IMG/VR virus record: IMGVR_UViG_3300043313_000346
Location: 1-64,000 of that record
Source: a virus
Strand: one strand, 5' to 3'
DNA: 64,000 nucleotides
The position numbers and the translations under genes were made by a program. Every line of letters begins with the position of its first letter. The first letter of the stretch is position 1. The notes below the pieces were generated by a model that was given only the letters and a program-made list of their open reading frames with translations, ran no database searches and was not told where the DNA came from. Positions 3,541 through 34,769 of the stretch are shown here, piece by piece.

Positions 3541-4609
3541 GGCCCAACACGCTCCACCCTTCGATCTCACCACGCGCAAAAATCTCAACCCGGTTGTCGG
3601 CTGTGAAATCCGGGTACATGCGTTCGATCGCCTGCCTGATCTCTGGCGGCTTGGCGCTGTGCTTGCCGCGCCGATAGCGAAACACCGAAGACAAAAGCTC
3701 GATCGGCTTCGGCGGCGCGCCGCGCGATCCGTAGAGCAGCACTTCGTGTTGATTGCGGAAGATCAGGCCGAGCCCGATCACTTCCTTGTCCCAAACCGCA
3801 TGCGTCTTGTATTCGAAGCCGAGCCCTTCCATCACGGCGAGTGCGCGCTTGAGGTTCGACGACGTACACCACATGAACATCGCGCAGTCGTCCTGCGCGA
3901 GTTGCTCGATGGTCTGCCCGAAAAATTCGATGTCGATGATCTCTTCGTCGGTCATGACCGGGTAGTGATCGTCCGGCATGCGGTGCGTCATGTCGGGCGT
4001 GTGCGTCTCGAACGTCCAAGGCGGATCGAGATAGATCAGCGCGAACGGCCCGAGCTTCGCCGGCGCCGCGAGCTTGGCCTTCGCTGCCTGCCTGACGATG
4101 CGCTTGTGCTTGTCCTTGCGCTTTTCTTGATGCCAGAACGGGCGCGCGGCGGTGATCAGTTCGTTGTAGGTGACGAAGTCTTCAGTGCCGCGATAGTGCG
4201 CCAGCGTCGATTCCAGCTTCGGCGGCGGCAGCGCGCCGACGCGCTGGACGGCAACCGCCGTCTGTTTGGTCAGCCCGAGCTTCCCTAAAACTGATGTAAA
4301 TCCACTTGACGCCAGTTTCCCCTTGCCGGGATGTTTGGCCCGCTCGATCTTCGCCAGCATCCGGCCGAGCTTCCAGCGTGCCCTGATCTTTCCTTCGTTC
4401 GCCTCGCGCACCTGTTCAGACTTGAACAGCCCGGTGCTGCGCATCATGTGCTCGATCGATTCCAGCTTGCGTTCGATGTCGAGAACCTCTTCCGGATCGG
4501 TAGCTTTCTCCAGCGCGCGCAGCCCGGCGCTGATCATGCGCAGCACCGCCGCCGGATTCTCCGTCTTCTTCCTGACCGCATTTCCCGCCACAGTTTTTCT
4601 CCCTTTCAT
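3512..4609 (-). CDS. MT-A70 family DNA N6-adenine methyltransferase
   Basis: A 365-residue protein. The catalytic motif DPPW is at about residue 195 in LIYLDPPWTF, with later blocks typical of MT-A70 enzymes (MFMWCTSSNL, HAVWDKEVIGLG, HEVLLYGSRG, RVEIFARG). The N-terminal 170 residues are helical and basic and may bind DNA. MT-A70 enzymes transfer a methyl group from S-adenosylmethionine to adenine N6; phages use this to avoid restriction or mark replication state. Its ATG overlaps the stop of the primase-helicase gene. Confidence 0.88.
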   Translation of the reverse strand: MKGRKTVAGNAVRKKTENPAAVLRMISAGLRALEKATDPEEVLDIERKLESIEHMMRSTGLFKSEQVREANEGKIRARWKLGRMLAKIERAKHPGKGKLASSGFTSVLGKLGLTKQTAVAVQRVGALPPPKLESTLAHYRGTEDFVTYNELITAARPFWHQEKRKDKHKRIVRQAAKAKLAAPAKLGPFALIYLDPPWTFETHTPDMTHRMPDDHYPVMTDEEIIDIEFFGQTIEQLAQDDCAMFMWCTSSNLKRALAVMEGLGFEYKTHAVWDKEVIGLGLIFRNQHEVLLYGSRGAPPKPIELLSSVFRYRRGKHSAKPPEIRQAIERMYPDFTADNRVEIFARGEIEGWSVLGHEAAYKTAA

Positions 4610-6780
4610 GCCTCATCGATCGTTGTGCCGGGCAGCTTGCTCATGTTGACGCGCAGCCCCTTGCGCGACTTGCCCTTGCTGGTCGACGTCGTGACATCGA
4701 CTTCCTTCAGCACGCCGTTCTTGACCCACACGTTGAGCAGCTTCTGCGCTTCCTTGTCGGCGCACTCGACGTGCTCCTGCACCACGGTGCCGGCCCATCG
4801 CGTGGTCTTGCCGCGTCGCGTCAGCGTGTAGAGATCAGGCGTCGGATCGATCCGCGCGCCGTCGTCGGTGGCGAGACGCGGCTTGTTCTCGACGATCACG
4901 CCCTTGTCGATCGCGAGCAGGATCGTGCGCGCGAGCCCGGCGTCGATCTTGTCGAACACGTTCTTCGGCTTGAACACTTCGAGCACGCCAAGCTCGTCGG
5001 CCGGCTCGTCGTCGCCGCCCTTGTTCGGCAGCGTGAACGTGCGCTTGAAAAACCAGCGCGCCTTGAACGTCACCAAGCTCAGGTTGGCCTTGGCATCGTC
5101 GAAGCGCAGATATTCGTGGCGCCGATCCGGATCGATCTCGAACGCCTGCGCCTCGATCTCGGTCATGGTGAACAAGGTCGAGACCACGCGCGCGACACCG
5201 AGCAGCGCGCCGGCCCCACGCGAGACATCCATGTCGCCGGGCGCGTTGGCATATTTGCGCGTGTGATGCACCAGCCAGACCGCGCAGTTGGTGCGGCGCG
5301 CGATCTCGCGCCACAGCACCGCGCACCATTTCAATTCGCTGTTGCTCGACTCATCGCCCTCGAAGGTCTCAGCAAACGGATCGACGATCAGCACATCGAT
5401 CTTGTCGGCCTCGATGCGCGCGATGATGTTCTCGATCATCGGCGTGCGGACCACGGTTTTCGTGCGGCTGTTGGCGCGCGCGATCACGATGTCTTCCGGT
5501 CTGTCGGCGAGCGCGAGCCGATCGTGCAGCACCGCCTCGTCGCAGTTCATGATCTTGGCCGCCGCATAGAGCCGCCGGCGCATCTCGTCGCCGTCGTCCT
5601 CCGAGTTGATCACCAGCACCTTGAGCGGGCCGCGCGGATGCCAGCCGGCCCACGGCACCGCCGTCGTCATCATCAGCGCCATCTGCAGGGTGAGCAGCGA
5701 CTTGCCCGAGCCCGGTGGCGCCACCATCACCGAGACGTGGCGGCGCAATAACAGCCCCGGCACGACCCACGGCCGGCGCGGAATCTCTTCAGGCCGAATC
5801 GGGAACGGATAGACAACCGGCACCGGCACGATCGGCGCCGGCTTGGCCTCATCGCCCGGCGGCTGCCAGTCCTGTGCAAACGTTGACCCATCTTCGTGCT
5901 GGTCGTGGCCGTTGGTCGCCGGCATCTCTTCGATCGGCAGGCTGTCGAGCGCCTCGCGCGTGCCGCCGCGTTCGATGTACTCGCTCAAATCCTTCGCCGG
6001 CAGCTTGAGCAGCGCGACGCTCGCCGCGATCGGCTTCAGCCGCTTGGCGATGACGCGCGCAAGCTCGCCGCCCTTCATCGGATCGTCGTCCTGATCCGGC
6101 ACCAGCACGACGTTGGCGCCACGGAAAAAATCGTCGTAGGTGCCGCGCTCCCAAAAACCCTTGCCGGCGGTGCCCATCGCGGTGGTGGTCGTCACCAGCC
6201 CGAGCGCCGCGCCGTTGTCGGCATCCTTCTCGCCTTCGACCCAGTAGACCGGATGACCGTGTGCAATGCCCTCGATCAGATCGGGCAAGCGATACGGCAC
6301 CATCCGCACGCCCTGCAGGTTCTCGATCCATTGATCGGGATGCACCGGGTCCGGCCGGCGCTGCGAGAAGCTCTTCGGATCGGCATAGCGGCAGACCTGA
6401 TAGTTCACCGCGTCGTGCTCGTCGGTGTAGTCGTAGGCGCACGAGAACTTGCCGCGCGGCTTTGACTTGCCCTTGTGCGTCTTCGGCGCGTCATCCTTCG
6501 GCGGCGGCTCGCCGGTGATGATCTCGACCGCCTGCACGAAGCTGACGCCGTCGAGCGCCATCACAAGGCTGATCGCGCCGTGCCCCTTGGTGCCGCAGCC
6601 GCGACAGTTGAACACCTGCTTTTCCAGATCGACCGCGAAGCGATCCTCGCCACCGCATTTCGGACACGGGCCGGCGCGCTTGTTGCCGCGTCCCATCAGC
6701 TTGATCTGGCGGCTGCTAAGTATCGCGTTGACGTGAGCATCCCGCGCACGATCGACCCAATGGCGGAACGCGGGCGTCAT
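4606..6780 (-). CDS. Replicative primase-helicase (zinc ribbon, TOPRIM, RecA-like ATPase)
   Basis: A 724-residue fusion. Residues about 38-65 form a DnaG-type zinc finger (CPKCGGEDRFAVD...CRGCGTKGHG). Residues about 175-245 form a TOPRIM domain (YWVEGEKDADNGAA, VLVPDQDDD). From about 345 a RepA/RecA-like helicase follows, with Walker A PPGSGKS near 357, SEDDGDEMRRRL, Walker B VLIVDPFAETF near 463, and WLVHHTRK. It would prime and unwind DNA at the phage fork. It lies between the RuvC-like and MT-A70 genes, with a 4-base overlap downstream. Confidence 0.92.
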   Translation of the reverse strand: MTPAFRHWVDRARDAHVNAILSSRQIKLMGRGNKRAGPCPKCGGEDRFAVDLEKQVFNCRGCGTKGHGAISLVMALDGVSFVQAVEIITGEPPPKDDAPKTHKGKSKPRGKFSCAYDYTDEHDAVNYQVCRYADPKSFSQRRPDPVHPDQWIENLQGVRMVPYRLPDLIEGIAHGHPVYWVEGEKDADNGAALGLVTTTTAMGTAGKGFWERGTYDDFFRGANVVLVPDQDDDPMKGGELARVIAKRLKPIAASVALLKLPAKDLSEYIERGGTREALDSLPIEEMPATNGHDQHEDGSTFAQDWQPPGDEAKPAPIVPVPVVYPFPIRPEEIPRRPWVVPGLLLRRHVSVMVAPPGSGKSLLTLQMALMMTTAVPWAGWHPRGPLKVLVINSEDDGDEMRRRLYAAAKIMNCDEAVLHDRLALADRPEDIVIARANSRTKTVVRTPMIENIIARIEADKIDVLIVDPFAETFEGDESSNSELKWCAVLWREIARRTNCAVWLVHHTRKYANAPGDMDVSRGAGALLGVARVVSTLFTMTEIEAQAFEIDPDRRHEYLRFDDAKANLSLVTFKARWFFKRTFTLPNKGGDDEPADELGVLEVFKPKNVFDKIDAGLARTILLAIDKGVIVENKPRLATDDGARIDPTPDLYTLTRRGKTTRWAGTVVQEHVECADKEAQKLLNVWVKNGVLKEVDVTTSTSKGKSRKGLRVNMSKLPGTTIDEA

Positions 6781-8139: not shown

Positions 8140-8964
8140 ATGACCCCGATCGCGTTCCGACTATTCCGCCGGGTGATGAGCGGCGCCAAGATGTCCACCG
8201 ACGAACGCACGTTCGCGATGAAGCGCTTGATCGACGTGCGCTACTTCGAGGCCACCGAGGTCGCGCCGCTGATCTTCGATCTGACCAAGCGCCTCACTGA
8301 CCAGTGGTCGCGTGACCGCAGCATGCCGAAGCTCCAAGCGTTCTTGCCAGCACCGCGAACATGGATCGAATACGTGGTGCCGGATGATCCGCACTTCGCC
8401 AAGGGACGCCAGCAAAAAGCGGATCGCGGCGCTTTCCTGTTCGAGACTCATGACGACGGCCACGTGAGCGTCACCGGCATGCTGAAGTGGCCGGACGGAA
8501 GGGTGCAGTCTTCAGCCGGCTTTGCTGAGCCGAACCATCCGCGTGCTTTCTTCCCGTTGAGCAGCGAGGATTTTGTGCCCGAGACGCCTGTCGCGCAGAC
8601 GTTCGAGCGCCAGCATCACATCTATTTCGAGATGCACGCGATGCTCGCCGTCATCAATTCACCGCGCGTGATCGAACAGGAGAGCCGTGAGCCGCATCGC
8701 GGGCTCGTGCGCGAGATGCGCAACGCCAACATGCCGCACAAGTTCACGCCGTGGTCGGTCATCAAGTACAGCGTCACGCGTGCGGCGATCGATGCCGCAG
8801 GCGAGACCGGCGAGCACGGCGGCGAGCGCTGCCTGCATTTCGTGCGCGCTCACACCCGCTGGCTGACTCAGCAAGGACGCATCACCTTGGTCACGGCGCA
8901 CAAGCGCGGCAACCGCGAACGCGGCGATAAGACCATCGGTTCAACATACACGGTGAGCCCATGA
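8140..8964 (+). CDS. Conserved-type phage protein at start of early operon
   Basis: From MTPIAFRLF, after the strong ribosome site AGGGG, this is 274 residues. The C-terminal 45 residues (CLHFVRAHTRWLTQQGRITLV..HKRGNRERGD) resemble the end of the 38941 protein (VRGHFKLRRTGVFWWSPHERGD), so the two may share a small basic domain. No enzyme motif recognised. As first gene of the rightward operon it is probably expressed early. Stop and next start overlap. Confidence 0.65.
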   Translation: MTPIAFRLFRRVMSGAKMSTDERTFAMKRLIDVRYFEATEVAPLIFDLTKRLTDQWSRDRSMPKLQAFLPAPRTWIEYVVPDDPHFAKGRQQKADRGAFLFETHDDGHVSVTGMLKWPDGRVQSSAGFAEPNHPRAFFPLSSEDFVPETPVAQTFERQHHIYFEMHAMLAVINSPRVIEQESREPHRGLVREMRNANMPHKFTPWSVIKYSVTRAAIDAAGETGEHGGERCLHFVRAHTRWLTQQGRITLVTAHKRGNRERGDKTIGSTYTVSP

Positions 8965-9899
8965 GCGCCGATGATCATCTCAACATCCATCCGATCACCG
9001 ATGCCTGCCACGGCGAAGAGACTCTGACGATCTTCAACGCCAGCGACATGGGCAGCCTGTTCGGCGTCGGCTTCAAGTCGCTCGCCTATGTCTCGGCCAA
9101 GAAGCGCGGCATCGTTCCGCTGGCGTCCGACGATCCCGAGAATCCGCTGATGGAACGTGGGCTCGACTTCGAGGACGCCGCGCGCAAACGCGTGGCACGC
9201 AAATATCCCGCGTGGCAGATCACAAAATGCACCGATCATTATGTTGCGGATCGCATCGGCGCCAAGCCGGACAATCTGGTGATCGATCCGGCACGCGAGG
9301 GTGTCGGTGTGCTGGAGCTAAAGGTAACCGCCGAGCCGATCCACCGGCGCGAGTGGCTCGATGACACGCCACCGCTGAAATACTTGCTGCAGCTTTCGAC
9401 GCAGATGATGCTGGTGCCCGACTGCACATGGGGCGCGATCGGCGAACTGGTGGTCGGCCCGTTCACCTACGAGACCAACGTCTACATCGTCGAGCGCAAC
9501 CGCAGCGCCGAAATCCGGCTGCGCACCGCCGTTGCCGAGTTCTGGCAGACGTTCGACGCCGGCGGCGAACCGGCGATCGACTTCGAGCGCGACGGCGCGC
9601 TGATCGCGCTGATGTTCCCGCATGAAGTGCCGGGCAAGGTGATCGACCTGTCGTCCGACAATGCGATCCGCGATCTGTTGCAGCGTCGCGACATTCTCAA
9701 GGACACCGAGAAGGACGTCGTGAAGCGGCTGAAGGAATGCGAAAACGAGATCAAGGCCAAGCTCGGCGATGCCGAAGGCGCGATCGTGCCGGGCTGGCGC
9801 GTGACGCTCAAGACGCAGCACCGCAAAGGCTACACCGTCGAGCCGTCATCGTTTCGTGTGCTGCGCACCACGCGCCACGAGCAGGAGACGGCATCATGA
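8961..9899 (+). CDS. YqaJ-like viral recombinase (alkaline exonuclease)
   Basis: 312 residues. Motifs of the YqaJ/lambda-exonuclease PD-(D/E)XK family are seen: a substrate loop near residue 40, MERGLDFEDAARKRVARKYP with the helix glutamate, then KPDNLVID...VLELKVT with the catalytic E-x-K. Such enzymes resect one DNA strand to give 3' overhangs for the RecT-type annealase encoded two genes downstream. The last 60 residues form a charged helical tail. Confidence 0.88.
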   Translation: MSADDHLNIHPITDACHGEETLTIFNASDMGSLFGVGFKSLAYVSAKKRGIVPLASDDPENPLMERGLDFEDAARKRVARKYPAWQITKCTDHYVADRIGAKPDNLVIDPAREGVGVLELKVTAEPIHRREWLDDTPPLKYLLQLSTQMMLVPDCTWGAIGELVVGPFTYETNVYIVERNRSAEIRLRTAVAEFWQTFDAGGEPAIDFERDGALIALMFPHEVPGKVIDLSSDNAIRDLLQRRDILKDTEKDVVKRLKECENEIKAKLGDAEGAIVPGWRVTLKTQHRKGYTVEPSSFRVLRTTRHEQETAS

Positions 9900-10123
9900 C
9901 CGCTCTCGCAATGTGGACCGTCTACGATCACCCCACCGATTATCCCGACAAGTTTGTCGCGCGCCGCTTCGATGTCGACGGCAACGGCGCGAAGCCGTCC
10001 GAGAGCATCATCATCCATTCGGACCTGAACAAGCTGCGCGACATGCTCTGTTTCGAACTGCATCTGACCTGCTTGACGCGCAGCGAGGGTGACGATCCGA
10101 AGATCATCGAGACGTGGCTGTAA
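9896..10123 (+). CDS. Small protein between exonuclease and annealase
   Basis: 75 residues starting MTALAMWTVYDHPTDYPDKF; the ATG overlaps the exonuclease stop. The DHPTDYPDKFVARRF start is typical of small proteins in alphaproteobacterial phages. No catalytic motif. Its place inside the exonuclease-RecT pair suggests a linked but unknown role. Confidence 0.65.
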   Translation: MTALAMWTVYDHPTDYPDKFVARRFDVDGNGAKPSESIIIHSDLNKLRDMLCFELHLTCLTRSEGDDPKIIETWL

Positions 10124-10138
10124 AACGAGGGAGTCGAT

Positions 10139-11248
10139 ATGAGTACCACTCAAGTGATGGAGCGTGAGACCAAGACGCAGCCGGCGATCACCGTGCTGCG
10201 CGATCGGCTGTTGCAACGGCGCGCCGAGCTTGAGCATGCGCTGGAAGGATCAGGCATCAGCCCCGATCGCTTCATCCGCGTGGCGGTGACCGCTGCGATG
10301 ATGCAGCCCGAACTGATCAGCGACGTCAGCTTTCAATCGCTCTGGCAAGCGCTGCTCGAAGCCTGCAACGATCGGCTACTGCCCGATCGCCGGCAGGGCG
10401 TGATCTTGCCGTACAAAGGCAAGGCCAAATGGCAGCGCATGTATCACGGGATGATCGATCGGTTTCAGCAATCGGGCGAATTCAAATGGATCGGCGCCGG
10501 GCTGCACCGCGAAGACGATCGCGAGTTCGACGTCTGGCTCGATGAGCACGGCCAGCACTTTCTGCATCGCCCGGGCCCGGGCAACGGCAAGGTGGTCGAG
10601 AGCTACGCGGCAGCGCTCACCAAGGGCGGTGGATTCTTCGTCACTACGATCAACGAAACCGAGATGCAGAAAATTCGCAACGTCTCGCGCGCGCGTGGCG
10701 AGGATTCACCGTGGCAGCAATGGACCGATCAGATGCGGCTGAAGACCGCGCTGAAGCGGCTGTGCAACTTGCTGCCGGTGCCGCAGGGGCTCGACACTCT
10801 GGTGAGGGATGAGGGTGACGACGCCGGCGAGACGCCGGCCACAGGCTACACGCTGCCGACACCGAAGCCGCCGGCACGCCCGCGCGGCGCGCAGAACGCG
10901 CTCGATCATTTCGGCGGTGAGCCCGATGACGGCGCAGGCGAGCCCGACACGCGCCCGCCGCCGACGGCGAAAGGCGATCGCTTCTATCGCGAGCCCGAAC
11001 CGACTCCGGAGACCGACAAGCCCGAGCCGAAGACGGTCGACACGGTCGATCAATCCACCGGCGAGATCACCAGCCATGCGGAGATTCCGCAGGTCCGGCT
11101 CGATGTCGCCCACGAGCGCGGCGTCGAGGCCAAGCGCACCGGGCTCAAGCGCACCACACCGCCCGGCGAATATCGCGAGGCCAACCGCGAAGGCGAGCTT
11201 CGGGCATGGCTCAAGGGTTGGGACGGCGAACCGCTAGGGAGCGGGTGA
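10139..11248 (+). CDS. recT: RecT family single-strand annealing recombinase
   Basis: 369 residues. The core (residues about 25-225) follows RecT: RFIRVAVTAAMMQPEL..., LWQALLEACNDRLLPD, VILPYKGKAKWQRMYHGMI, MQKIRNVSRARGEDSPWQQW and MRLKTALKRLCNLLP. The tail is proline- and charge-rich and probably disordered. RecT coats single-stranded DNA and anneals it to complementary strands, completing the recombination route started by the YqaJ exonuclease. Confidence 0.9.
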   Translation: MSTTQVMERETKTQPAITVLRDRLLQRRAELEHALEGSGISPDRFIRVAVTAAMMQPELISDVSFQSLWQALLEACNDRLLPDRRQGVILPYKGKAKWQRMYHGMIDRFQQSGEFKWIGAGLHREDDREFDVWLDEHGQHFLHRPGPGNGKVVESYAAALTKGGGFFVTTINETEMQKIRNVSRARGEDSPWQQWTDQMRLKTALKRLCNLLPVPQGLDTLVRDEGDDAGETPATGYTLPTPKPPARPRGAQNALDHFGGEPDDGAGEPDTRPPPTAKGDRFYREPEPTPETDKPEPKTVDTVDQSTGEITSHAEIPQVRLDVAHERGVEAKRTGLKRTTPPGEYREANREGELRAWLKGWDGEPLGSG

Positions 11249-17676: not shown

Positions 17677-18770
17677 AACCGGGGCTGCCACACGTTGACA
17701 GCTTCCCCGACAGGCACGGCAGGCGACGCTATTTCTTTCGGCTCAATCGACAATCGAAGCGCATCCCGCTTCCTGACATCGACGATCCGAATTTCATGGC
17801 AGCCTATGAGGCCGCGAAGGCCGGCACACCGACTCAACTGCCACCGAAGCCGCTCGGCGCCTCGAAGATCAGACCGGGCTCGGTCGCCGAAGCGATGGCC
17901 GAGTTCTATGCCGATGACACGTGGACGGCGCTCGCCGACACCAGCCGTTCGCAAATCAAGTGCTACCTTGAACCGTTCCGCGAAGAGCACGGGCACCGCA
18001 TGATGCGCGAGCTTGCGACGCTCAAGCTGCAGAAGATCGTCGACAAGCTCGGCCCGCACTCGCAGCGTCATCTGGTCGCCGGCATCCGCAAGCTCACCAA
18101 GTTCTGCCGGCGCGTCGGCTACCTCGACAAGACCACGCCCGATCCGGCGCGCGATCTGGAAATGAAGGACAAGCCGAAGACCGACGGATTCTATACGTGG
18201 GTTGAGAGCGATCACGTCGCCTTCAAGCGGCGATGGGGCAAGGACACGCGTCCGCGTCTGGTCTATCAACTGATCAACAACTTCGGCCTGCGTCTGTCGG
18301 ACGTTCGCAAGGTGGCACCGCGCCACATCGTCAGCGGCGTGATGACGATCAAGCCGCAGAAGACGCAGAACAGCAGCAAGGTCGACGTCGACATCGAGGT
18401 CTGGCCCGAGACGCTGGAGATCATCGCGGCGAACCGGCAGCGGCAATTCAAAAACGTGGTGATCCTCAACGACGCGAACCTGCCGTTCGTGTTGACCAAC
18501 ACCAACGCTGCGCCGCGACCGCTGAAGGTGAAGTCGCTCGGCATGGACATGCGCGAGGCTTACGACGCGGCGGGGCTCACGCACTGCACCAGCCACGGCA
18601 TCCGCAAGTCCGGTGCTGCGGTGGCGGCCGAGCAGGGCGCGACCGTCAACGAGTTGATGGCGATGTTCGGATGGGTCACGCCGAAGGAAGCGATGCGCTA
18701 CACCGAGAAGGCTGACCGCAAGCGCATGGCCGCAAGCGGCACAAAGAAACGCGCTGCGGCAGAAGGCTGA
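17661..18770 (+). CDS. int: Tyrosine site-specific integrase
   Basis: 369 residues. Catalytic signs of the tyrosine recombinase family are visible: arginine in NFGLRLSDVRK near residue 210, HGIRKSGA (H-x-x-R) near 311 and AMRYTEKADR with the nucleophilic tyrosine near 346. The N-terminal half has a core-binding region. It would insert the phage into the host chromosome and excise it. The 3' flank has repeats expected of arm sites. Confidence 0.92.
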   Translation: MGRRLKPGLPHVDSFPDRHGRRRYFFRLNRQSKRIPLPDIDDPNFMAAYEAAKAGTPTQLPPKPLGASKIRPGSVAEAMAEFYADDTWTALADTSRSQIKCYLEPFREEHGHRMMRELATLKLQKIVDKLGPHSQRHLVAGIRKLTKFCRRVGYLDKTTPDPARDLEMKDKPKTDGFYTWVESDHVAFKRRWGKDTRPRLVYQLINNFGLRLSDVRKVAPRHIVSGVMTIKPQKTQNSSKVDVDIEVWPETLEIIAANRQRQFKNVVILNDANLPFVLTNTNAAPRPLKVKSLGMDMREAYDAAGLTHCTSHGIRKSGAAVAAEQGATVNELMAMFGWVTPKEAMRYTEKADRKRMAASGTKKRAAAEG

Positions 18771-25980: not shown

Positions 25981-26021
25981 CTGTTGATGCTGACACTGCG
26001 CGGCGCCACGCGCCGCAGTGA

Positions 26022-26114
26022 CCACTGAAGAGCGGCGACCAGACGAAGGCGCGCCGCTTCACAGTGTTCATGCACTCGCGCCTCGCAACGGCGCGCCAAC
26101 AAATGGAGAATGCA
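26022..26114 (+). promoter_or_regulatory. Leader element A, upstream of MoxR gene
   Basis: In order: CACTG (26023-26027) paired with CAGTG (26062-26066) around a GCGGCG/CGCCGC stem; AGTG/CACT alternative stem (26063-26076); hairpin CGCGCC-TCGCAAC-GGCGCG (26077-26095); and AAATGGAGA (26101-26109) six bases before the ATG. Confidence 0.65.
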
Positions 26115-27140
26115 ATGACTGCTCTTCTGAACGAAGTTGAATGCACGATCGCGGAAGCGGCTGTGCTGCTCGAAAGGCAACTTGCCAAGGGCAAGCCCGT
26201 GATGATGTGGGGCGCGCCCGGGCTCGGCAAGTCGGCGATCGTCTGGCAGCTTGGCGCCAAGCAGGGCCGCAAGGTGATCGAGTATCGCGCCAACCTGCGC
26301 GAGCCGGTCGACGTGCGCGGCATCCCGGTGCCCGATCTGGTGAGCGGCACGACACGCTGGCTTGTGCCGGAAGACCTGCCGAACGCCGAGCGCGACGGCG
26401 AGTTCGGTTACCTGTTCCTCGACGAGATCAACACGGCGTCGCCGCAGATGATGGCGGTGCTGTTCGGTCTCGTGCTCGATCGGCGCATCGGTGACTACGT
26501 GCTGCCGGCTGGCTGGCAGATCATCGCTGCCGGCAACCGCGTGAGCGATCGCGCGGCGGCTCAACGGATGCCGACGGCGCTGCGCAACCGCTTCTCGCAT
26601 CTGACCGTACTGCCCGACGTCAACGCGTGGGCGGTGTGGGCGAACGCGAACGGTGTGGCGCCTGAGATGGTGGCGTTCGTCCGCTTGCGGCGCGAACTGA
26701 TCCACCGGATGCCGCGCGGCGATGAGAACGCATTCCCGACGCCGCGCTCGCTGACGGCGGCTGCGGAGTTCGTTGACGAGCCGAGCATCGCGCTGCGGCA
26801 AAAGCTGTTCGCCATGCACGTCGGCAATGACGTCGCCGGCGAGTTGAACGGCTTCATCGAGCTTTATCAATCGCTCGGTTCGCTCGACGACATCGTCGCC
26901 GATCCTGCCAATGCGAAGGTGCCCACCGAACCTTCGCAACTCTACGCGGTCTGCACCGGGCTCGCGCGTCTCGCGACGCGAAAGAACTGGTCGCAGATCG
27001 TGACCTATGCCGAGCGGCTGCGCGGCGAGCATCAAGTTCTGCTCGTGCATGACGCCGTGATGCGTGACCCGAAGCTGAAAGAGACGTCGGCCTATTCCAA
27101 GTGGGCCGTCGCCAATCAGGGCGCGCTGATGCAATCGTGA
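26115..27140 (+). CDS. MoxR-like AAA+ ATPase
   Basis: 341 residues from MTALLNEVE, chosen because it follows GGAGA at normal spacing. Walker A GAPGLGKS near residue 34, Walker B YLFLDEIN near 104 and sensor 1 AAGN near 138 are intact, followed by RMPTALRNRFSHL with the arginine finger. MoxR ATPases act as chaperones with VWA proteins to insert metals or remodel complexes. The gene two places downstream encodes a VWA partner. Confidence 0.9.
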   Translation: MTALLNEVECTIAEAAVLLERQLAKGKPVMMWGAPGLGKSAIVWQLGAKQGRKVIEYRANLREPVDVRGIPVPDLVSGTTRWLVPEDLPNAERDGEFGYLFLDEINTASPQMMAVLFGLVLDRRIGDYVLPAGWQIIAAGNRVSDRAAAQRMPTALRNRFSHLTVLPDVNAWAVWANANGVAPEMVAFVRLRRELIHRMPRGDENAFPTPRSLTAAAEFVDEPSIALRQKLFAMHVGNDVAGELNGFIELYQSLGSLDDIVADPANAKVPTEPSQLYAVCTGLARLATRKNWSQIVTYAERLRGEHQVLLVHDAVMRDPKLKETSAYSKWAVANQGALMQS

Positions 27141-27230
27141 GCAGTAAGGGCGGCGCCGTGTGCGCCGCCCCATAGTGCCCATGCACTGCGCCGTCGCAAC
27201 CGGCGCCAACCTTTCAAATGGAGATTCCCA
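27141..27230 (+). promoter_or_regulatory. Leader element B
   Basis: Perfect 9-bp hairpin GGGCGGCGC/GCGCCGCCC (27148-27170), then AGTGC-CCAT-GCACT (27174-27187), hairpin GCGCCG-TCGCAAC-CGGCGC (27188-27206) and AAATGGAGA (27216-27224). It starts directly after the MoxR stop codon. Confidence 0.7.
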
Positions 27231-28127
27231 ATGAACGCGAAAACGAAAGTGATCGCCTCGCCGCTGTCGCGGAAGGCAACGCTGGTGTCGGTCGACATCA
27301 GCCAATGGACGGCACGCAAGCTCGACAAGCGGGTGACGGACAAGGTCAACCGCGAGCACAACGCGGCCGACGACGCCGGCCGCTATCACAAGCTGCTGAT
27401 CGAGGCCAAGCGGCTCGAAGCGATCAACTCGCTGGTCGCGCAGGCACGCCGGCTGCACTACACGATGACGAAGCCGTGGGCCGACGAAGGCTTGCGCATC
27501 CTGCCGAACAAGCTGCACGAAAAGTTCGCCAGCGAGTTTCGCAAATTGAAGCGCGAGTTCGACGTGGCTGCTGATGACTTCTGCCGCGAATATCCGACGT
27601 TCATTGCCGAGCGCAAGAAAGCTCTCAACGGCTTGTTCAACGCGTCGGACTATCCGCCGGCCGATGAGATCAGGAGCAAGTTCCGGCTGACGACGAAGAC
27701 GTTCCCACTGCCTGAGTCGGATGACTTTCGCTCGGACGTGCTCGACGCGGACACGGTCGAAGACATCAAGCGCGAGCTTGCCGAGACGAACGAAGCGGTG
27801 CTTGCCGATGCGATGAAGCACACGGCCAAGCAGATCACCGAAGTCGTCGGGCACATGGCCGAGAAGCTGAAGGCGTACAAAAAGCCGGGCAAAGGTTCGC
27901 GCAGCTTTTTCTCGCACACGCTGGTCGAGAACGTGCGGCAGCTTGCCGAGCTTCTGCCGGCCTTCAATCTCGACAACGATCCGGCGCTCGACGCGATCGC
28001 CGATCGCATCAACAAAGAACTTTGCGTCGAAGACGCAGAGACACTGAGACACGACGACAACGCGAGGAAGTCGGTGGCCAAGAGCGCCGACGACATCCTG
28101 CGCGATGTCGAAAGCCTGCTCGGCTGA
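27231..28127 (+). CDS. Middle protein of MoxR-VWA module (DUF3150-like)
   Basis: 298 residues, helical and charged. The start ATLVSVDISQWTARKLDKRV and the place between a MoxR ATPase and a VWA protein recall the DUF3150 proteins found in phage MoxR-VWA modules. I infer this from pattern and position, not from a clear motif. It may be an adaptor or substrate of the ATPase. Confidence 0.6.
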   Translation: MNAKTKVIASPLSRKATLVSVDISQWTARKLDKRVTDKVNREHNAADDAGRYHKLLIEAKRLEAINSLVAQARRLHYTMTKPWADEGLRILPNKLHEKFASEFRKLKREFDVAADDFCREYPTFIAERKKALNGLFNASDYPPADEIRSKFRLTTKTFPLPESDDFRSDVLDADTVEDIKRELAETNEAVLADAMKHTAKQITEVVGHMAEKLKAYKKPGKGSRSFFSHTLVENVRQLAELLPAFNLDNDPALDAIADRINKELCVEDAETLRHDDNARKSVAKSADDILRDVESLLG

Positions 28128-28174
28128 GAGCGCGCCCGGCCGCAACCCGGGCGCTTTTCAAAATGGAGATGACA
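28128..28174 (+). promoter_or_regulatory. Leader element C (short form)
   Basis: Only the second hairpin is present, and it is the most stable of the family: GCGCCCGG-CCGCAAC-CCGGGCGC (28132-28154), eight perfect pairs. TTTT and AAAATGGAGA follow before the ATG at 28175. The lack of the first hairpin suggests the two halves are separable modules. Confidence 0.7.
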
Positions 28175-29614
28175 ATGCAGACGATCGACACGGTGACGGC
28201 ACAAGCCGCCGAGCGCGTGAGCAAGGCGCGCCAAGAACTGATCCTTGAGCGCACGTTCTACGGCGTGCTGGTCAGCCAAGTCGAGGCCAAGCCGTCGCGC
28301 GACTTCCCGACGATGGCGACGAACGGCCGGACGCACTTTTTCAATCCGGACTTCATCGCCTCTCTGTCGCAGGTCGAAGTGCTCGGCGTGCAGGCGCACG
28401 AGACCGAGCACGATGCGCGCCGCCATCACACGCGGCGCGGTAACCGCGATCCGCAAGAATGGAACGTGTGCTGCGATCTCGCGATCAACCCTGACCTGAT
28501 CCGCGCGGGCTTCAAGCTGCCGGAAGGCGCCCTGCTCGACTGGCGCTTCGAGGGCATGTCAGCCGAAGACATCTATCGGACGCGCGAGCTTGAGCGGCAG
28601 CCGCCGCAACAGCCGCAGCCCGAATCGGACAAATCGGACAAAGCGGACAAAGCGGACAAATCGGACAAATCGGACAAATCGGACGGAACCGATGGAACCG
28701 ACGGCGACGATGCCGACGGCGACGAAGGCGCTGGCGAGGGCGCTGGTGAAGCCGGCGAAGAGCCGGGCGACACTGGCACCGGCGAAGGCGCCGGCGACGC
28801 TGGCGAGCCCGGTGAGGGCACCGGCGAGGGCTCTGGCGAGGGCGAAGGCTCGGACGCTGGCAGCGATGCCGGCGAGGCCAAGCCGGGGCCGTCTTCGGGC
28901 GATCCCGGCCGCTGCGGCGAAGTGCTCGACGCGGCGGTTGATGCCGCCGAGCGGGCCGACGTCGACGCCAAATGGGAACGTGTCGTGCGCGAGGCCGCAA
29001 GCCTCGCACGCAAGCGCGGCGACGCTCCCGGGCACGTGTCGCGCGAGATCGAGCGGAACGATCATCCCCCGCAAGACTGGCGCGAGACTTTGCGTGCCTT
29101 TTTCGACGGCGGCGCGGTGACCACCGAAACGTGGTCGCGTCCGAACCGGCGCTTCATCGGCGGCGGGCTCTATCTGCCCGGCCGCGAGCGTGACGGCGTC
29201 AACCGCGTCGCCATGCTGGTCGACACGTCCGGTTCGATGGATGATGTCGCGCTTGCGGCGATCGGCGTCGAAGTGCAAGCGGCGCTCGATGAGAACATCA
29301 TCGACGAGCTTGTCGTGATCTACGGCGACACGCGGGTGACGCGCGTCGACACGTATCGCGGCGGCGACGAGATCGAGTTCGATCCGCGTGGCGGTGGCGG
29401 CACCCGGTTGATGCCGCTGTTCGATCACGTGGCGAACGAAGTCGATGCTTCGCTGATCGTGTGCTTCACCGACGGTGAGCACGAGATCACCAGCGCGCAC
29501 GCTGAGCCGGCTTGCCCGGTCCTGTTTGCGATCACCGGCTTCCCGCAGGACGTTCGCCACTACGTCGCGAATGCACCGTGGGGCGCCACCGCGATCGACG
29601 TCGGATCGCACTGA
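28175..29614 (+). CDS. Metallopeptidase-VWA protein (DUF2201-like)
   Basis: 479 residues. The N-terminal domain has a zinc-peptidase HExxH (HETEH, about residue 75) in LGVQAHETEHDARRHH, and WNVCCDLAINPDLI. A low-complexity linker (about 145-245) is rich in SDK, then DG and GE. The C-terminal VWA-like domain has the metal-site motif DTSGSMDD near residue 350 and a later FTDGEHE. This is the DUF2201 layout. With the MoxR ATPase it forms a likely chaperone pair. Confidence 0.85.
   Translation: MQTIDTVTAQAAERVSKARQELILERTFYGVLVSQVEAKPSRDFPTMATNGRTHFFNPDFIASLSQVEVLGVQAHETEHDARRHHTRRGNRDPQEWNVCCDLAINPDLIRAGFKLPEGALLDWRFEGMSAEDIYRTRELERQPPQQPQPESDKSDKADKADKSDKSDKSDGTDGTDGDDADGDEGAGEGAGEAGEEPGDTGTGEGAGDAGEPGEGTGEGSGEGEGSDAGSDAGEAKPGPSSGDPGRCGEVLDAAVDAAERADVDAKWERVVREAASLARKRGDAPGHVSREIERNDHPPQDWRETLRAFFDGGAVTTETWSRPNRRFIGGGLYLPGRERDGVNRVAMLVDTSGSMDDVALAAIGVEVQAALDENIIDELVVIYGDTRVTRVDTYRGGDEIEFDPRGGGGTRLMPLFDHVANEVDASLIVCFTDGEHEITSAHAEPACPVLFAITGFPQDVRHYVANAPWGATAIDVGSH
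28625..28687 (+). repeat. Seven tandem 9-bp units in coding sequence
   Basis: Units TCGGACAAA (four), GCGGACAAA (two) and TCGGACGGA (one) encode repeated SDK/ADK/SDG tripeptides in the linker of the metallopeptidase-VWA protein. Units this similar can vary in number by slippage, changing linker length without frameshift. Confidence 0.85.
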
Positions 29615-29705
29615 CCACTGCAGGGCGGCGTCGCAAGGCGCCGCCTCACAGTGTTCATGACGAACACCCGGCCCGCAACGCCGGATCACAAATGGAGTAA
29701 TGACA
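29615..29705 (+). promoter_or_regulatory. Leader element D
   Basis: CACTG (29616-29620), stem GGCGGCG/CGCCGCC (29624-29645), CACAGTG, alternative stem GTGTTC/GAACAC (29651-29667), hairpin CCGGC-CCGCAAC-GCCGG (29668-29684), then AAATGGAGT before the ATG at 29706. Confidence 0.7.
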
Positions 29706-30104
29706 ATGAAAAAGCTTGGTGGAGTTCTGATCATCATCGTCGGCCTGATCTGGCTGAGCAACGGCAAGCCCGCCGACACGACGCCGGCATCGCCGTGCAA
29801 ATCCGATTGGACAAAATGCACCGACAACGCCGACATGGCGAACAACTTCGGCGGCTGGTCCGGCGTGCAATATGACTGCAAAAAACAGGCGGAAGAACTC
29901 GCCAAATACGGCACGCCAGAATGGCCGTGGTTCGCCTTCTCATCCTTCCGCCCCGGCAGCAACTACAGCACCGGCACCGTCACGGTGATCGAGCCCGATG
30001 CCAAATTCCAGAACGGCTTCGGCGCGATGGTGCGCTCGCGCGTGGTCTGTGAATACGATCTGCGCAGCAAGAAGGTGACCAACGTCGACATCAGCGCGCG
30101 ATGA
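29706..30104 (+). CDS. Exported or membrane-anchored small protein
   Basis: 132 residues from MKKLGGVLIIIVGLIWLSNG, an N-terminal membrane helix or uncleaved signal. The rest (CKSDWTKCTDNADMANNFGG, YDCKKQAEELAKYGTPEWP) has four cysteines and resembles small periplasmic proteins common in Rhizobiales genomes. Probably envelope-located in the lysogen. Confidence 0.65.
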   Translation: MKKLGGVLIIIVGLIWLSNGKPADTTPASPCKSDWTKCTDNADMANNFGGWSGVQYDCKKQAEELAKYGTPEWPWFAFSSFRPGSNYSTGTVTVIEPDAKFQNGFGAMVRSRVVCEYDLRSKKVTNVDISAR

Positions 30105-30193
30105 GCACCACCGAGCGGCGCTTCGGCGCCGTTCCATAGTGCCCACGACGGACACTGCCGGCGCAACCGGCGCATCAAATGGAGACTTTCAAA
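30105..30193 (+). promoter_or_regulatory. Leader element E
   Basis: Stem GGCGC-TTCG-GCGCC (30117-30130), a very stable UUCG tetraloop hairpin; AGTG..CC/GG..CACT stem (30138-30156); hairpin GCCG-GCGCAAC-CGGC (30157-30171), the only copy with G at the first loop position; AAATGGAGA, then the ATG at 30194. Confidence 0.65.
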
Positions 30194-30403
30194 ATGGCGA
30201 ATCTCTACACCTACGAATGCCGCGCTTGCGGCTTCGCTCAAGTCTTCCGCGAAGACAACAGCATGCATTGCCCGCACTGCCGCGCGTGGCCGATGCGCGA
30301 GGCGCTGCCGAGCGTCGACGCGATGCTCGCGACGATCGACACCGTGATCGGCTGCGATGATACCGAGATGGCCGACAAGGCAACCCGGAGGGCAGCACGA
30401 TGA
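30194..30403 (+). CDS. Zinc-ribbon small protein
   Basis: 69 residues from MANLYTYECRACGF. CRAC near residue 9 and CPHC near 28 form a rubredoxin-like zinc ribbon (FmdB-like spacing). Could be a regulator or metal-handling protein. ATGA overlap with the next gene. Confidence 0.65.
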   Translation: MANLYTYECRACGFAQVFREDNSMHCPHCRAWPMREALPSVDAMLATIDTVIGCDDTEMADKATRRAAR

Positions 30404-30567
30404 GCCGGAAGACCGAAAGCAAGAAGGCCGCGCGCGTGCTGCGCGAAGTCTTCGACGCCAAGCTGCCAGTGCCCGGCGTGACCACGCGTGATCGCGACGC
30501 GGCGCTGTGGCTGGCGATCACGATCCTTGAAGCCCGCGCGCAAGATGCAGACAGTGAGGAAGGATAA
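30400..30567 (+). CDS. Small hypothetical protein, 55 aa
   Basis: Encodes MSRKTESKKAARVLREVFDA and a further 35 residues ending in an acidic tail. The ATGA overlap upstream, and the next gene's start four bases after its stop, support it. Unknown. Confidence 0.55.
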   Translation: MSRKTESKKAARVLREVFDAKLPVPGVTTRDRDAALWLAITILEARAQDADSEEG

Positions 30568-30570
30568 AAA

Positions 30571-30987
30571 ATGAAACATCTGACCAAGGCACAGGTAGCA
30601 ACGCGCGACGAACTGATCGCCGCGCTGCGCGGGAAAGACAAGGCGATCGATGATGCCATCATCGAGATCAACAACAAGATCGACGAAGTCAACGTGCTGA
30701 TCGAAGAGAACCTCAAGCCCGCGATCGACGACTACAACGGTGCGCTCGGCGATCTCGAAGAACTGCGCAATGAGATCGTCGGCCAGATGGACGACTATGT
30801 TAACGCGCGCTCTGAGAAGTGGAGCAACAGCGATGCCGGCGCGAACTATTCGTCGTGGAAGGACGAATGGGAAGGCATCGACATGAGCCCGCTCGACGAC
30901 ATCGAGCCGCTTGCACATCTCGAAGCATCGGACCCGGCACACGCCAACGAGTTCGAAGCGCTGTCGAGCGAGGTTCAAGAAGACTGA
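30571..30987 (+). CDS. Acidic coiled-coil protein, 138 aa
   Basis: Long heptad-like acidic helix (AIIEINNKIDEVNVLIEENL), then aromatic residues (WSNSDAGANYSSWKDEWEG). GGAAGGA precedes the start. Unknown; acidic helices of this kind occur in DNA mimics, but nothing specific points there. Confidence 0.6.
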   Translation: MKHLTKAQVATRDELIAALRGKDKAIDDAIIEINNKIDEVNVLIEENLKPAIDDYNGALGDLEELRNEIVGQMDDYVNARSEKWSNSDAGANYSSWKDEWEGIDMSPLDDIEPLAHLEASDPAHANEFEALSSEVQED

Positions 30988-31086
30988 GTGCTGCCAGAGC
31001 GGCGCGGGACAACTCGCGCCGCTTCACAGTGTTCATGCTGAGCACTCCCGCCGCAACGCGGGCAAAAATCCAAATGGAGAAAAACG
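30988..31086 (+). promoter_or_regulatory. Leader element F
   Basis: Perfect 9-bp hairpin AGCGGCGCG/CGCGCCGCT (30998-31023); CACAGTG; AGTGTTC-ATGCT-GAGCACT (31028-31046), with one G-T wobble replacing A-T of other copies; hairpin CCCGC-CGCAAC-GCGGG (31047-31062); AAATGGAGA (31072-31080); ATG at 31087. Confidence 0.7.
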
Positions 31087-31434
31087 ATGAAGTATCTACT
31101 GCCTCTTGCCGTCGCGCTTGCAATGACATCCGGCGCGAATGCCGGCTACACCGCCGGCGAGCTATTGAAGGAATGCAAGGCCGACTCGAAGAAAGCGGCT
31201 TGCGCGACCTATGTGACGGCTACATGGGATACATTCGAGGCACTGGCTTGGACTCATAAAGAGCTTGTCATTGCCAACATCTGCATCCCGCACGGCATCA
31301 CGGTCGTGCCGGCCGAGATGATCAAGCTCGCTGAAACGCGGATTCAGGAACAGAAGGCGACGCCGGATATGTCCGCTGCGGCGGTGCTGCTTGCTGGCCT
31401 GCGATCCAAGTTCAATTGTTTCGATCGACGCTGA
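31087..31434 (+). CDS. Secreted Rap1a/Tai-like protein
   Basis: 115 residues. A cleavable signal peptide (MKYLLPLAVALAMTSGANAG) is followed by TAGELLKECKADSKKAACATYVTATWDTFEAL, the cysteine-helix pattern of Rap1a/Tai-type periplasmic proteins, with C in NICIPHG and FNC. Rap1a proteins protect against type VI effectors in Serratia. Relatives in phages and Rhizobiales are uncharacterised, so immunity is only a guess. Confidence 0.65.
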   Translation: MKYLLPLAVALAMTSGANAGYTAGELLKECKADSKKAACATYVTATWDTFEALAWTHKELVIANICIPHGITVVPAEMIKLAETRIQEQKATPDMSAAAVLLAGLRSKFNCFDRR

Positions 31435-31510
31435 TCACTGCAGAGCGGTGCCAAATCTGGCGCCGCTTTTCATGCCGGTCGCAACCCGGCTCAACAAATG
31501 GAGAACTGAA
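31435..31510 (+). promoter_or_regulatory. Leader element G
   Basis: CACTG, stem AGCGGTGCC/GGCGCCGCT (31444-31467) followed by TTTT, so this copy could terminate transcription. The AGTG alternative stem is missing. Hairpin GCCGG-TCGCAAC-CCGGC (31474-31490) and AAATGGAGA precede the ATG at 31511. Confidence 0.7.
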
Positions 31511-32164
31511 ATGAAGACGCTGAAATGCGTCGCGCTCGCTGCCGCACTGCTCGCCAGTGCTTCGAGCGCGCACGCTGCAATGAAGGCCTACCAGACATCC
31601 GGCCTTTGGTCCGCGAATGCCGGCACGGCCAACGACGGCACGCCGATGTGCTCGATGAGCATCCAAGACAAGGAACGCGCGGCCTTCATCAAGTGGCAGG
31701 CGGGAAGCGAAAATCTGTTCGTGCAGGTTTATAAGTCAAGCTGGAATATCCCGATCGGCACAACGATGCCGATGACGATCCAGTTTGATCGCGCCGAGCC
31801 GTTCAAGGGGACCGCGACATCGATTCCCGGTGGCAACGGGCAGATGATCGAAGTGTCTCTCAAAAACGAGGAAGGCAGCACGATCCCCCGGTCGTTCATG
31901 GAGGAATTCGCATCGGCGGTGAAGATGTACTTCATCTTTCCCGGCGGCAACGAAACGCTATGGTCCGCACCGATGGAAGGCTCGCGCATCATCGCCGGAT
32001 CGTTTGCGAAATGCGTGATCGACTATTCCAAATATGCGACGCCCAAGACGCAGCCGCACAAGGGCGGTGGCGGCGGCGGGGCGACGCAGCCGCACAACAG
32101 CACCCCGGCTGAGCCGGTGGCGCCACCACCACTGAGCGGCAGCGCCAAACGCAACGACATCTAA
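31511..32164 (+). CDS. Secreted protein with proline-rich tail
   Basis: 217 residues. Signal peptide MKTLKCVALAAALLASASSA then HA. The mature part is beta-rich (GTPMCSMSIQDKERAAFIKW, MTIQFDRAEPF, CVIDYSKY). The last 45 residues are glycine-, then proline-rich. Likely periplasmic or surface-exposed; function unknown. Confidence 0.65.
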   Translation: MKTLKCVALAAALLASASSAHAAMKAYQTSGLWSANAGTANDGTPMCSMSIQDKERAAFIKWQAGSENLFVQVYKSSWNIPIGTTMPMTIQFDRAEPFKGTATSIPGGNGQMIEVSLKNEEGSTIPRSFMEEFASAVKMYFIFPGGNETLWSAPMEGSRIIAGSFAKCVIDYSKYATPKTQPHKGGGGGGATQPHNSTPAEPVAPPPLSGSAKRNDI

Positions 32165-32267
32165 AGGTGACCACTGCAGAGCGGCGTGCCACAAGCGCGC
32201 CGCTCGACAGTGTTCATGCGAACACTCGCCCGCCGCAACCGGGCGCAAAAAAATGGAGAACCTTACA
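32165..32267 (+). promoter_or_regulatory. Leader element H
   Basis: CACTG (32172-32176) pairs with CAGTG (32208-32212) around GAGCGGCG/CGCCGCTC. The competing stem AGTGTTC-ATGC-GAACACT (32209-32226) has seven perfect pairs. Hairpin CGCCCG-CCGCAAC-CGGGCG (32227-32245) and AAATGGAGA (32251-32259) follow, then the ATG at 32268. This is the clearest full-length copy. Confidence 0.75.
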
Positions 32268-32498
32268 ATGACGATAAAGTCCCTCATCCTGACGGCGGCG
32301 CTCTTGCTCGCCGGCCCGCACATGCTGCGCGCCGATGACGCCAAGGGCGCGGCCGATGACGCATCCCGCGAATGGAGTCCGATCGAGGTTGTCTACTTCT
32401 GCAATCTTCCTCTGGCCGAAGCCAAGATCGAGAACTGCACGGCAGCGCAGCCGAAGCGACAGCGACAAGCGCGCTTGCGCAAGAAGGTGATCCGATGA
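32268..32498 (+). CDS. Small secreted protein
   Basis: 76 residues: signal peptide (MTIKSLILTAALLLAGPHML), then a short mature part with two cysteines (YFCNLPLAEAKIENC) and a basic end. Stop and next start overlap in ATGA. Unknown. Confidence 0.6.
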   Translation: MTIKSLILTAALLLAGPHMLRADDAKGAADDASREWSPIEVVYFCNLPLAEAKIENCTAAQPKRQRQARLRKKVIR

Positions 32499-34108: not shown

Positions 34109-34333
34109 ATGCGAAGACGAACGGCTCAATTTGTTAGACTCGCGCGCGCTAAGCTCAAGATGACACAAGCAGAATTTGCGAAACGGCTTGGGCTCGAACG
34201 TCGCAGCATCTTGCGATACGAGAAGGGCGAACCGTTGCCACCGACGGTGTACTTCGCGATCAAATTTCTGGTCGCGCGTGACAGGCTCAACAAGCAACGA
34301 GCCAAAGAGCGGATCAACAAAAGAGCCAATTAA
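34109..34333 (+). CDS. XRE-family HTH regulator 1
   Basis: 74 residues: KLKMTQAEFAKRLGLERRSI then LRYEKGEPLPPTVYFAIKFL is a complete Cro/CI-type HTH, with a basic tail (NKQRAKERINKRAN). No dimerisation or cleavage domain, so it is Cro-like in size. About 80% identical in the core to regulator 2. Confidence 0.8.
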   Translation: MRRRTAQFVRLARAKLKMTQAEFAKRLGLERRSILRYEKGEPLPPTVYFAIKFLVARDRLNKQRAKERINKRAN

Positions 34334-34493: not shown

Positions 34494-34769
34494 ATGAAAA
34501 GAGGCGAGATGACTACGACGGACTTCGCTACCGACACGATGACTCCAATGAAGAGCACTGCAGGCTTCGTGAAGCGTGCGCGTGCGAAGCTCCAGATGAC
34601 TCAGGGTGAATTCGCTGAGCGTCTCGGGCTCGAACGCCGCACCATCATAAGATACGAGAAAGGCGAGCCTCTGCCTCCGACGGTTTACTTCGCAATCAAG
34701 CATCTGGTCTCACGTCATAAGCTCAACAAGCAAAGAGCCAAAGACCGAGCGACCGCCAAGGAAGACTAA
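34494..34769 (+). CDS. XRE-family HTH regulator 2
   Basis: 91 residues from ATG 34494 (or 86 from ATG 34509, which sits closer to AGAGG). The HTH core KLQMTQGEFAERLGLERRTI then IRYEKGEPLPPTVYFAIKHL nearly repeats regulator 1, and the basic tail is also shared. Arose by tandem duplication; the two may act as opposing or heterodimeric regulators. Confidence 0.8.
   Translation: MKRGEMTTTDFATDTMTPMKSTAGFVKRARAKLQMTQGEFAERLGLERRTIIRYEKGEPLPPTVYFAIKHLVSRHKLNKQRAKDRATAKED

Follow-up and report, generated by a model that had tools for sequence, protein, structure and literature searches.

A 64,000-base window of viral DNA (bases 1-64000 of the 76,884-base record IMGVR_UViG_3300043313_000346) carries, at 26115-29614, three intact plus-strand genes encoding a MoxR-type AAA+ ATPase, a DUF3150 protein and a protein in which an HExxH metallopeptidase domain is joined to a VWA domain (DUF2201). 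A sequence-only reading of this DNA had described the set as a MoxR-VWA module with a helical middle protein, a description borne out by domain searches and by the linkage of the three genes in both phages and plasmids. The explanation that we tentatively favor is that the trio constitutes one cytosolic, three-part machine of mobile elements, acting on early nucleoprotein complexes and not on the virion.

The ATPase possesses the AAA_5 domain of MoxR-type AAA+ proteins. Its Walker A, Walker B and sensor residues are intact, and these motif residues are invariant in alignment A3. A profile search identified the Midasin chains as its nearest solved relatives (E 3.5e-33), and the bpMoxR model of Pfam scored under its cut-off. 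The third protein has both DUF2201 domains over cut-off together with the two motifs of that class, HExxH (here HETEH) and DxSxS (here DTSGS, the metal ion-dependent adhesion site, MIDAS). In alignment A6, which holds 37 phage sequences including that of the window, the residues that never vary are H75, H79, H84, R87, N97, D101 and N105 in the peptidase half and D350, S352, S354, T410 and D433 in the VWA half; conservation of E76 is 90% or more. Judged by the conserved H75, E76, H79, H84 and D101, the protein is a putative zinc metallopeptidase. Pattern counts in frames of more than 330 codons found HExxH in 92 of 95 phage and plasmid frames and in 74 of 76 cellular frames; the narrower DxSGS pattern was absent from a further 27 phage or plasmid and four cellular frames, in which the other residues are kept. 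In the AlphaFold2 (AF2) model the acidic linker in the middle of the protein is of low confidence or disordered, and the structure matches of the model are mainly VWA domains, with the peptidase half barely covered. A nine-base tandem repeat at 28614-28693 encodes SDK-type residues in this linker. The HNH endonuclease label carried by phrog_1314 was rejected for the third protein, since DUF2201_N and DUF2201 are the sole Pfam domains matched at E<=1. The same label is attached to N4 gp25 (L100:3165-4307) and to the DUF3150 protein gp96 of phage Tunturi_3 (L004:4875-5834); on the metallopeptidase-VWA and Tunturi_3 DUF3150 proteins it looks like a propagated misannotation.

The marginal Pfam score of the middle protein is backed by its alignment with plasmid DUF3150 (hhalign 96.4% over 153 columns, E 1.4e-9), and its predicted helical character by an AF2 model that is largely helix, with a mean predicted local distance difference test (pLDDT) score of 93.1. 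Comparison of this model with the PDB by Foldseek yielded no match at E<=0.001 and 386 at E<=10, and the best alignment by VIA-align (Z 9.9, root-mean-square deviation 3.4, 105 aligned) involves mostly the C-terminal helices and is uninformative for a helical bundle. The profile likewise found nothing among PDB sequences at E<=0.1. As these searches took the model as a whole, the fold is not called new. Significant matches in BFVD are phage proteins, one named DUF3150 and the others unnamed or uncharacterized, and the term DUF3150 retrieved no papers in the literature searched, outside which most subscription journals lie.

Linkage of the three genes was assessed with the DUF2201 alignment, which retrieved 348 relatives from viral contigs and 326 from genomes, the best 80 of each being used. 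Profile scans located all three genes in 73 of the 80 phage contigs, DUF3150 and DUF2201 in four whose contigs start there, and MoxR and DUF2201 only in three (L037, L083, L095); this set is redundant, the 70 trio loci of later gene calls forming 30 lineages at 60% identity. The cellular contigs comprised 54 with the trio, 17 with MoxR and DUF2201, three with DUF3150 and DUF2201 and six with DUF2201 alone; several of the incomplete loci are contig ends, and those without DUF3150 include Kribbella, Mastigocoleus and Thermoflexus. Thus the co-occurrence in relatives that the sequence-only reading had proposed to look for was found, and the genes do not occur only separately. Gene order was MoxR-DUF3150-DUF2201 in 62 and DUF3150-MoxR-DUF2201 in nine of the 71 viral loci scored, and split 49, 4 and 1 across the 54 cellular loci; that adjacency is kept though order varies argues for functional linkage. 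A tblastn search recovered DUF3150 from just 4 of 50,697 phage records (Tunturi_3 and three of equal length, possibly one phage) versus 77 of the 80 phage contigs retrieved via DUF2201, a co-occurrence far above chance; relatives of DUF2201 and MoxR among phage records number 479 and 792. A 531-aa AAA-domain protein is encoded about 2 kb upstream of DUF3150 in Tunturi_3. Two forms of the module exist, a two-gene form (N4 gp24/gp25, LIT1, phiFa, jumbo phages) and a three-gene form with DUF3150, and a deep profile search for a diverged DUF3150 in the N4, LIT1, phiFa, SABI, phage G and RCIP0023 loci found none. In Thermus phage phiFa an annotated ribonuclease H gene (L003:4282-4779) lies between the ATPase and VWA genes. 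With the phage-branch profile A4, DUF3150 was detected in one of 398 Pseudomonadota genomes, the search centre itself; PF11348 was not used for this census because it matched only one of four genomes from trio loci, below cut-off. The module is therefore mostly confined to mobile elements, with Acidobacteria and other cellular contigs also carrying the trio, and its presence on plasmids and cellular contigs, a point beyond the reach of the sequence-only reading, means that it is not phage-specific.

On plasmids, the window DUF3150 protein has matches in 44 replicons, mostly from Burkholderiales, and in each of the four regions viewed (L007-L010) an ATPase gene is followed by DUF3150 and then by a VWA-like gene, adjoining type IV secretion genes in L008 and L010. 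Plasmid pCAR1 encodes MoxR, DUF3150 (PF11348 8e-92) and a NorD-annotated VWA protein. Its transcriptome paper remarks on the genes for MoxR and VWA and reports that ORF100-103 are conserved in R478, Rts1, SXT and R391 (PMC2642839). A tblastn search with the pCAR1 DUF3150 protein matched 1139 of 72,556 plasmids, 983 of them typed conjugative. The gene order in IncC plasmids is AAA ATPase, hypothetical, ssb, bet, exo, DUF3150, VWA; that in L186, L187 and L191 is recT, exo, hypothetical, MoxR, DUF3150, VWA, and two of these three also have ssb upstream. L189 has bet and exo, and L188 has exo. Altogether, lambda-exonuclease lies in the same gene run in six of the eight pCAR1-type plasmid loci viewed, with RecT or Bet also in five. 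The VWA proteins of pCAR1, IncC and six other plasmids (seven annotated, that of L187 from an open frame) all bear an N-terminal HExxH, which a Ser/Gly/Asp-rich linker separates from the VWA domain, so that the window and these plasmids share a grouping of MoxR, DUF3150 and HExxH-VWA. The phage and plasmid VWA branches are homologous (hhalign 96.5%, E 9e-10) in an alignment that covers the VWA half; shared descent is therefore indicated for the DUF3150 and VWA branches only. Downstream of the plasmid trio, a gene annotated as yfaE (ribonucleotide reductase maintenance, by annotation) or as 2Fe-2S was observed at L185:14954-15178, L189:15001-15225 and L190:9880-10332. In the integrative and conjugative element (ICE) SXT, deletions of bet, exo, s067, s068 and s070 are reported to cut transfer by <=10-fold, and these genes were excluded from the minimal set (PMC2791158), which speaks against the trio being the transfer machinery itself; the operon starting at s089 is SetCD-activated and described as encoding RecA-independent recombination (PMC4344509).

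The neighbours of the trio in phages point in a similar direction. Toprim/DnaB primase-helicase (10) and terminase (8) head the Pfam families among 149 neighbour proteins from trio-bearing phage lineages (of 183 past the length filter and 222 listed); next come Helicase_C (5), ResIII (5), SNF2 (4), PD-(D/E)XK (4), Sak (3) and sliding clamp (2). Of 33 whole phage records, 9 carry RecT, 7 carry Sak and none carries both, and YqaJ exonuclease is in 6, each time with RecT. RecT or Sak is present in 16 of 28 trio-bearing records versus none of five without the trio, a link that is suggestive only. Either host takeover or an early role in DNA metabolism would fit these neighbourhoods.

In the mechanism that we propose, MoxR would form an ATP-driven AAA+ ring, on which the VWA domain of the third protein would dock via its MIDAS metal site while gripping a target; the fused HExxH domain would then cut the gripped target, and DUF3150 would act as an adaptor or scaffold linking ring, VWA protein and substrate. 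The targets would most likely be the SSB, annealing-protein, exonuclease or replisome complexes of the element itself, or blocking host proteins, at entry or the start of replication. The ring, the gripping protease arm and the DUF3150 adaptor are suggested by the profile relationship to Midasin and by the model of MoxR-vWA pairs as chaperone and co-chaperone, in which the vWA captures a substrate peptide and the ATPase releases an altered form (PMC7159879); the DNA-metabolism targets are suggested by the gene neighbourhoods. On these grounds we infer that the three proteins form a complex, that it is proteolytic, that DUF3150 serves as its adaptor, and which class of target it has. The fuller proposal, that this is an undescribed ternary AAA+ remodelling protease of temperate phages, cyanophages and conjugative plasmids or ICEs that works with annealing-recombination and replication enzymes in entry and establishment, is possible but open to considerable doubt.

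Several observations weigh against these proposals. Many of the phage records behind the RecT and Sak counts are fragments. In the window phage RecE and RecT (8961-11248) lie 15 kb from the trio, outside the operon, so that the annealing protein and exonuclease found in the plasmid gene run are missing from its own. Neither kind of gene is present in the stretches of pCAR1 and L190 viewed, and none of the four DUF2201-type plasmids (L007-L010) has an annotated exonuclease or annealing protein. On the Paraburkholderia dioscoreae plasmid pIII (L008:8935-10212), ALKVMQ replaces HExxH and the VWA motif is retained; this protein is perhaps a natural protease-dead form, and proteolysis may therefore be dispensable. 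N4 and the jumbo phages lack DUF3150, and the whole record of Tunturi_3 has DUF3150 with MoxR and DUF2201 absent, so the three parts are not obligate everywhere. The identification of SXT s067 and s068 with DUF3150 and VWA comes from IncC gene order only and stays an inference, since a search of E. coli with IncC DNA found no distinct SXT (91 of 5426 genomes matched, with one chromosomal place, and the sole chromosome-sized record listed was 99.7% identical to IncC). Finally, exported-looking genes that follow the trio under the same leaders would also fit a role at the envelope.

Of the options raised by the sequence-only reading, host takeover (here taken together with counter-defence), in which the machine would dismantle restriction, RecBCD or other defence complexes just after entry, is unlikely, if not implausible. 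Phages, plasmids and, by a published statement, ICEs all have such needs as carriers, and the rarity of DUF3150 in cellular genomes agrees with it; on the other hand, no known counter-defence gene was identified beside the trio in flanks scanned by Pfam only, and the SXT deletions had the small effect on transfer given above, though measured in laboratory hosts (PMC2791158). A virion assembly chaperone or processing protease, with MoxR and the metallopeptidase-VWA protein folding, assembling and clipping structural proteins, is distinctly improbable. Such a role was proposed for the two-gene jumbo form by analogy to tail assembly in Acidianus two-tailed virus (PMC7824862), and in roseophage RPP1 four virion proteins are encoded close to N4 gp24/gp25 homologues (PMC4193335). 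However, conjugative plasmids with the same trio produce no virion, which disfavors virion maturation as a general function; moreover, the structural genes of the window phage lie on the opposite strand to the trio, at 42-77 kb, and gp24/gp25 belong to the middle class of N4 genes (PMC4193335).

The remaining option of that reading, that the trio defends its lysogen or plasmid host from other phages, gained no positive evidence and appears very unlikely: PADLOC gave no match for the three proteins at E<=0.01 (a methyltransferase model matched at 0.049), the set of three domains stays constant with no effector domain swapping seen, and the trio also occurs in phages without known lysogeny. What favors it are the three-gene MoxR-vWA ternary conflict systems of bacteria (PMC7159879) and the exported and Rap1a-like genes downstream, which could be lysogenic conversion genes. 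There is at most a slim chance that the trio resembles the CbbQ/NorQ-type MoxR proteins in maturing the metal cofactor of an enzyme of the element or host, ribonucleotide reductase for example. In pCAR1 a CbbQ_C domain is part of the MoxR protein and the VWA partner is annotated NorD, a yfaE-annotated gene follows on IncC and pVAS19, and a dCTP deaminase gene comes after N4 gp25; against this, no constant metalloenzyme accompanies the trio, and none is found in the 25 commonest families of the 149 phage neighbours.

The trio is embedded in an unusual series of leader RNA elements (Table 1). The claim that each gene has its own leader held for MoxR (E 3e-15) and DUF3150 (E 1e-14) and is only partly right for the third gene, which has the last hairpin only; a model match does occur just upstream of the third gene in relatives L014, L016, L021, L026, L028, L030, L031 and L043. 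Alignment A7 contains 31 leaders from the window and relatives, chosen by eye from 55 core matches, the 24 omitted being chance matches, near-identical L012 copies and some true copies. All 31 have TGA at the 5′ end. In the GC-rich hairpin both sides change in six of nine pairs and 96% of cells pair, and AGTGTTC can pair with upstream TGANCACT (86.7% of cells) or downstream GAACACT (93.0%), forming mutually exclusive helices; covariation for the two whole structures was 0.309 and 0.357 versus shuffle means of 0.140 and 0.169. In four of six aligned window copies this TGA terminates the gene ahead of the leader; in a fifth a TAA stop lies a few bases upstream, and ahead of the first copy no gene was called. 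The leader possibly couples each gene to translation of the preceding one. In the record, model R1 places seven copies on the plus strand, none of them outside 26.0-32.3 kb, with weaker minus-strand matches overlying the same hairpins. Among the 67 loci searched, copies are numerous in closely related phages (L011-L043, L058), and the only match beyond these is a weak one in L150 (E 0.034). This limitation to the operon and its close relatives indicates an operon-specific RNA element; Rfam gave four chance-level matches to the leaders, none above gathering score. Downstream of the trio, the leader-bearing genes at 29706, 31087, 31511 and 32268 (window 29706-32498) encode a hydrophobic N-terminus, by which these four proteins are likely exported; the Rap1a-like assignment of 31087-31434 (27.3 bits) is under the cut-off of 27.7.

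Table 1. Features of the window in and around the three-gene module.
Feature	Position	Strand	Support
MoxR-type AAA+ ATPase, 341 aa	26115-27140	+	PF07728 32.8 bits (cut-off 22); phrog_1297 5e-82
DUF3150 protein, 298 aa, mostly helical	27231-28127	+	PF11348 25.6 bits (cut-off 24.9; marginal)
HExxH-VWA protein, 479 aa: DUF2201_N metallopeptidase, acidic linker, DUF2201 VWA	28175-29614	+	PF13203 146.2 bits, PF09967 53.8 bits; phrog_1314 3e-81
Leader before MoxR	26010-26105	+	Covariance model R1, 59.8 bits, E 2.9e-15; row used in building model
Leader before DUF3150	27129-27219	+	Model R1, 57.7 bits, E 1.2e-14; row used in building model
Short leader before HExxH-VWA gene: last hairpin with GCAA and AAATGGAG ribosome site only	28130-28168 (hairpin ~28130-28155)	+	Sequence; no model match at E<=1
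Five more leader copies, downstream genes	29603, 30093, 30976, 31423, 32159 (29603-32255)	+	Model R1, E 2e-20 to 2.5e-6
Helicase-primase	4606-6780	minus	PHROGs
RecE	8961-9899	+	PHROGs
RecT	10139-11248	+	PHROGs
Integrase	17796-18770	+	PHROGs
Endolysin	41225-41854		Gene calling/PHROGs
Tail sheath	56619-58178	minus	PHROGs
Portal	61967-63421	minus	PHROGs
Baseplate proteins, tape measure, capsid, large terminase		minus	PHROGs

Gene calling and PHROGs assign the record to a phage with a contractile tail and an integrase, in which the trio sits inside a long plus-strand run of mostly small genes. A tandem pair of related genes (34142-34311 and 34578-34747) with 79% identity over 170 nt appears helix-turn-helix-like by eye.

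MoxR-VWA pairs are widespread and poorly understood. Once the N4/jumbo pair is connected with the core genes of conjugative plasmids, the virion can hardly serve as a general explanation, and simple laboratory systems such as pCAR1/Pseudomonas putida and N4/E. coli K-12 become suitable for testing the question. If the favored explanation is true, a machine acting on recombination or replication complexes would represent a new step in the establishment of mobile DNA, and the conserved core genes beside bet/exo in SXT and IncC elements would gain a function.

Of the known systems to which the trio can be compared, Midasin (Rea1/Mdn1) is the closest solved MoxR relative by profile; this AAA+ protein, whose own MIDAS domain pulls on assembly factors, is however one giant eukaryotic chain that serves ribosome assembly and is not known to carry a protease. 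N4 gp24/gp25 (Schitoviridae; phrog_1297, phrog_1314) resemble the window genes in being homologous, adjacent MoxR and DUF2201 metallopeptidase-VWA genes, with the relatives listed being ~28-37% identical to the window proteins; they have no detectable DUF3150, whereas in the window DUF3150 stands between both genes, which therefore do not form an N4-type pair. The MoxR and vWA-metallopeptidase chaperone pair described for group 2.2 jumbo phages (Iyer 2021, PMC7824862) shares a VWA partner with an N-terminal peptidase fusion, but comprises two genes without DUF3150 and was proposed to have a virion role. In Synechococcus phage MinM2, MoxR, DUF3150 and VWA-like genes occur in this order, although with four small genes interposed and ~30% identity. 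The genes of pCAR1 (ORF100-103), R478, Rts1, SXT, R391 (PMC2642839) and IncC likewise group MoxR, DUF3150 and VWA, with HExxH in the pCAR1/IncC VWA proteins; these differ in a NorD-like, larger VWA protein, often encoded in or beside ssb-recT/bet-exo, and in that DUF2201 models are not reported for the pCAR1 protein. The MoxR-vWA-VMAP or ternary conflict systems of bacteria (PMC7159879) also combine MoxR, vWA and a conserved third protein, but the third part here has DUF3150 as its only name in the Pfam scan, no effector variation was seen and bpMoxR remained below cut-off. Taken together, the pair of MoxR and metallopeptidase-VWA protein is already known, and the ternary form with DUF3150, the design shared with conjugative plasmids and the leaders are new within the literature searched.

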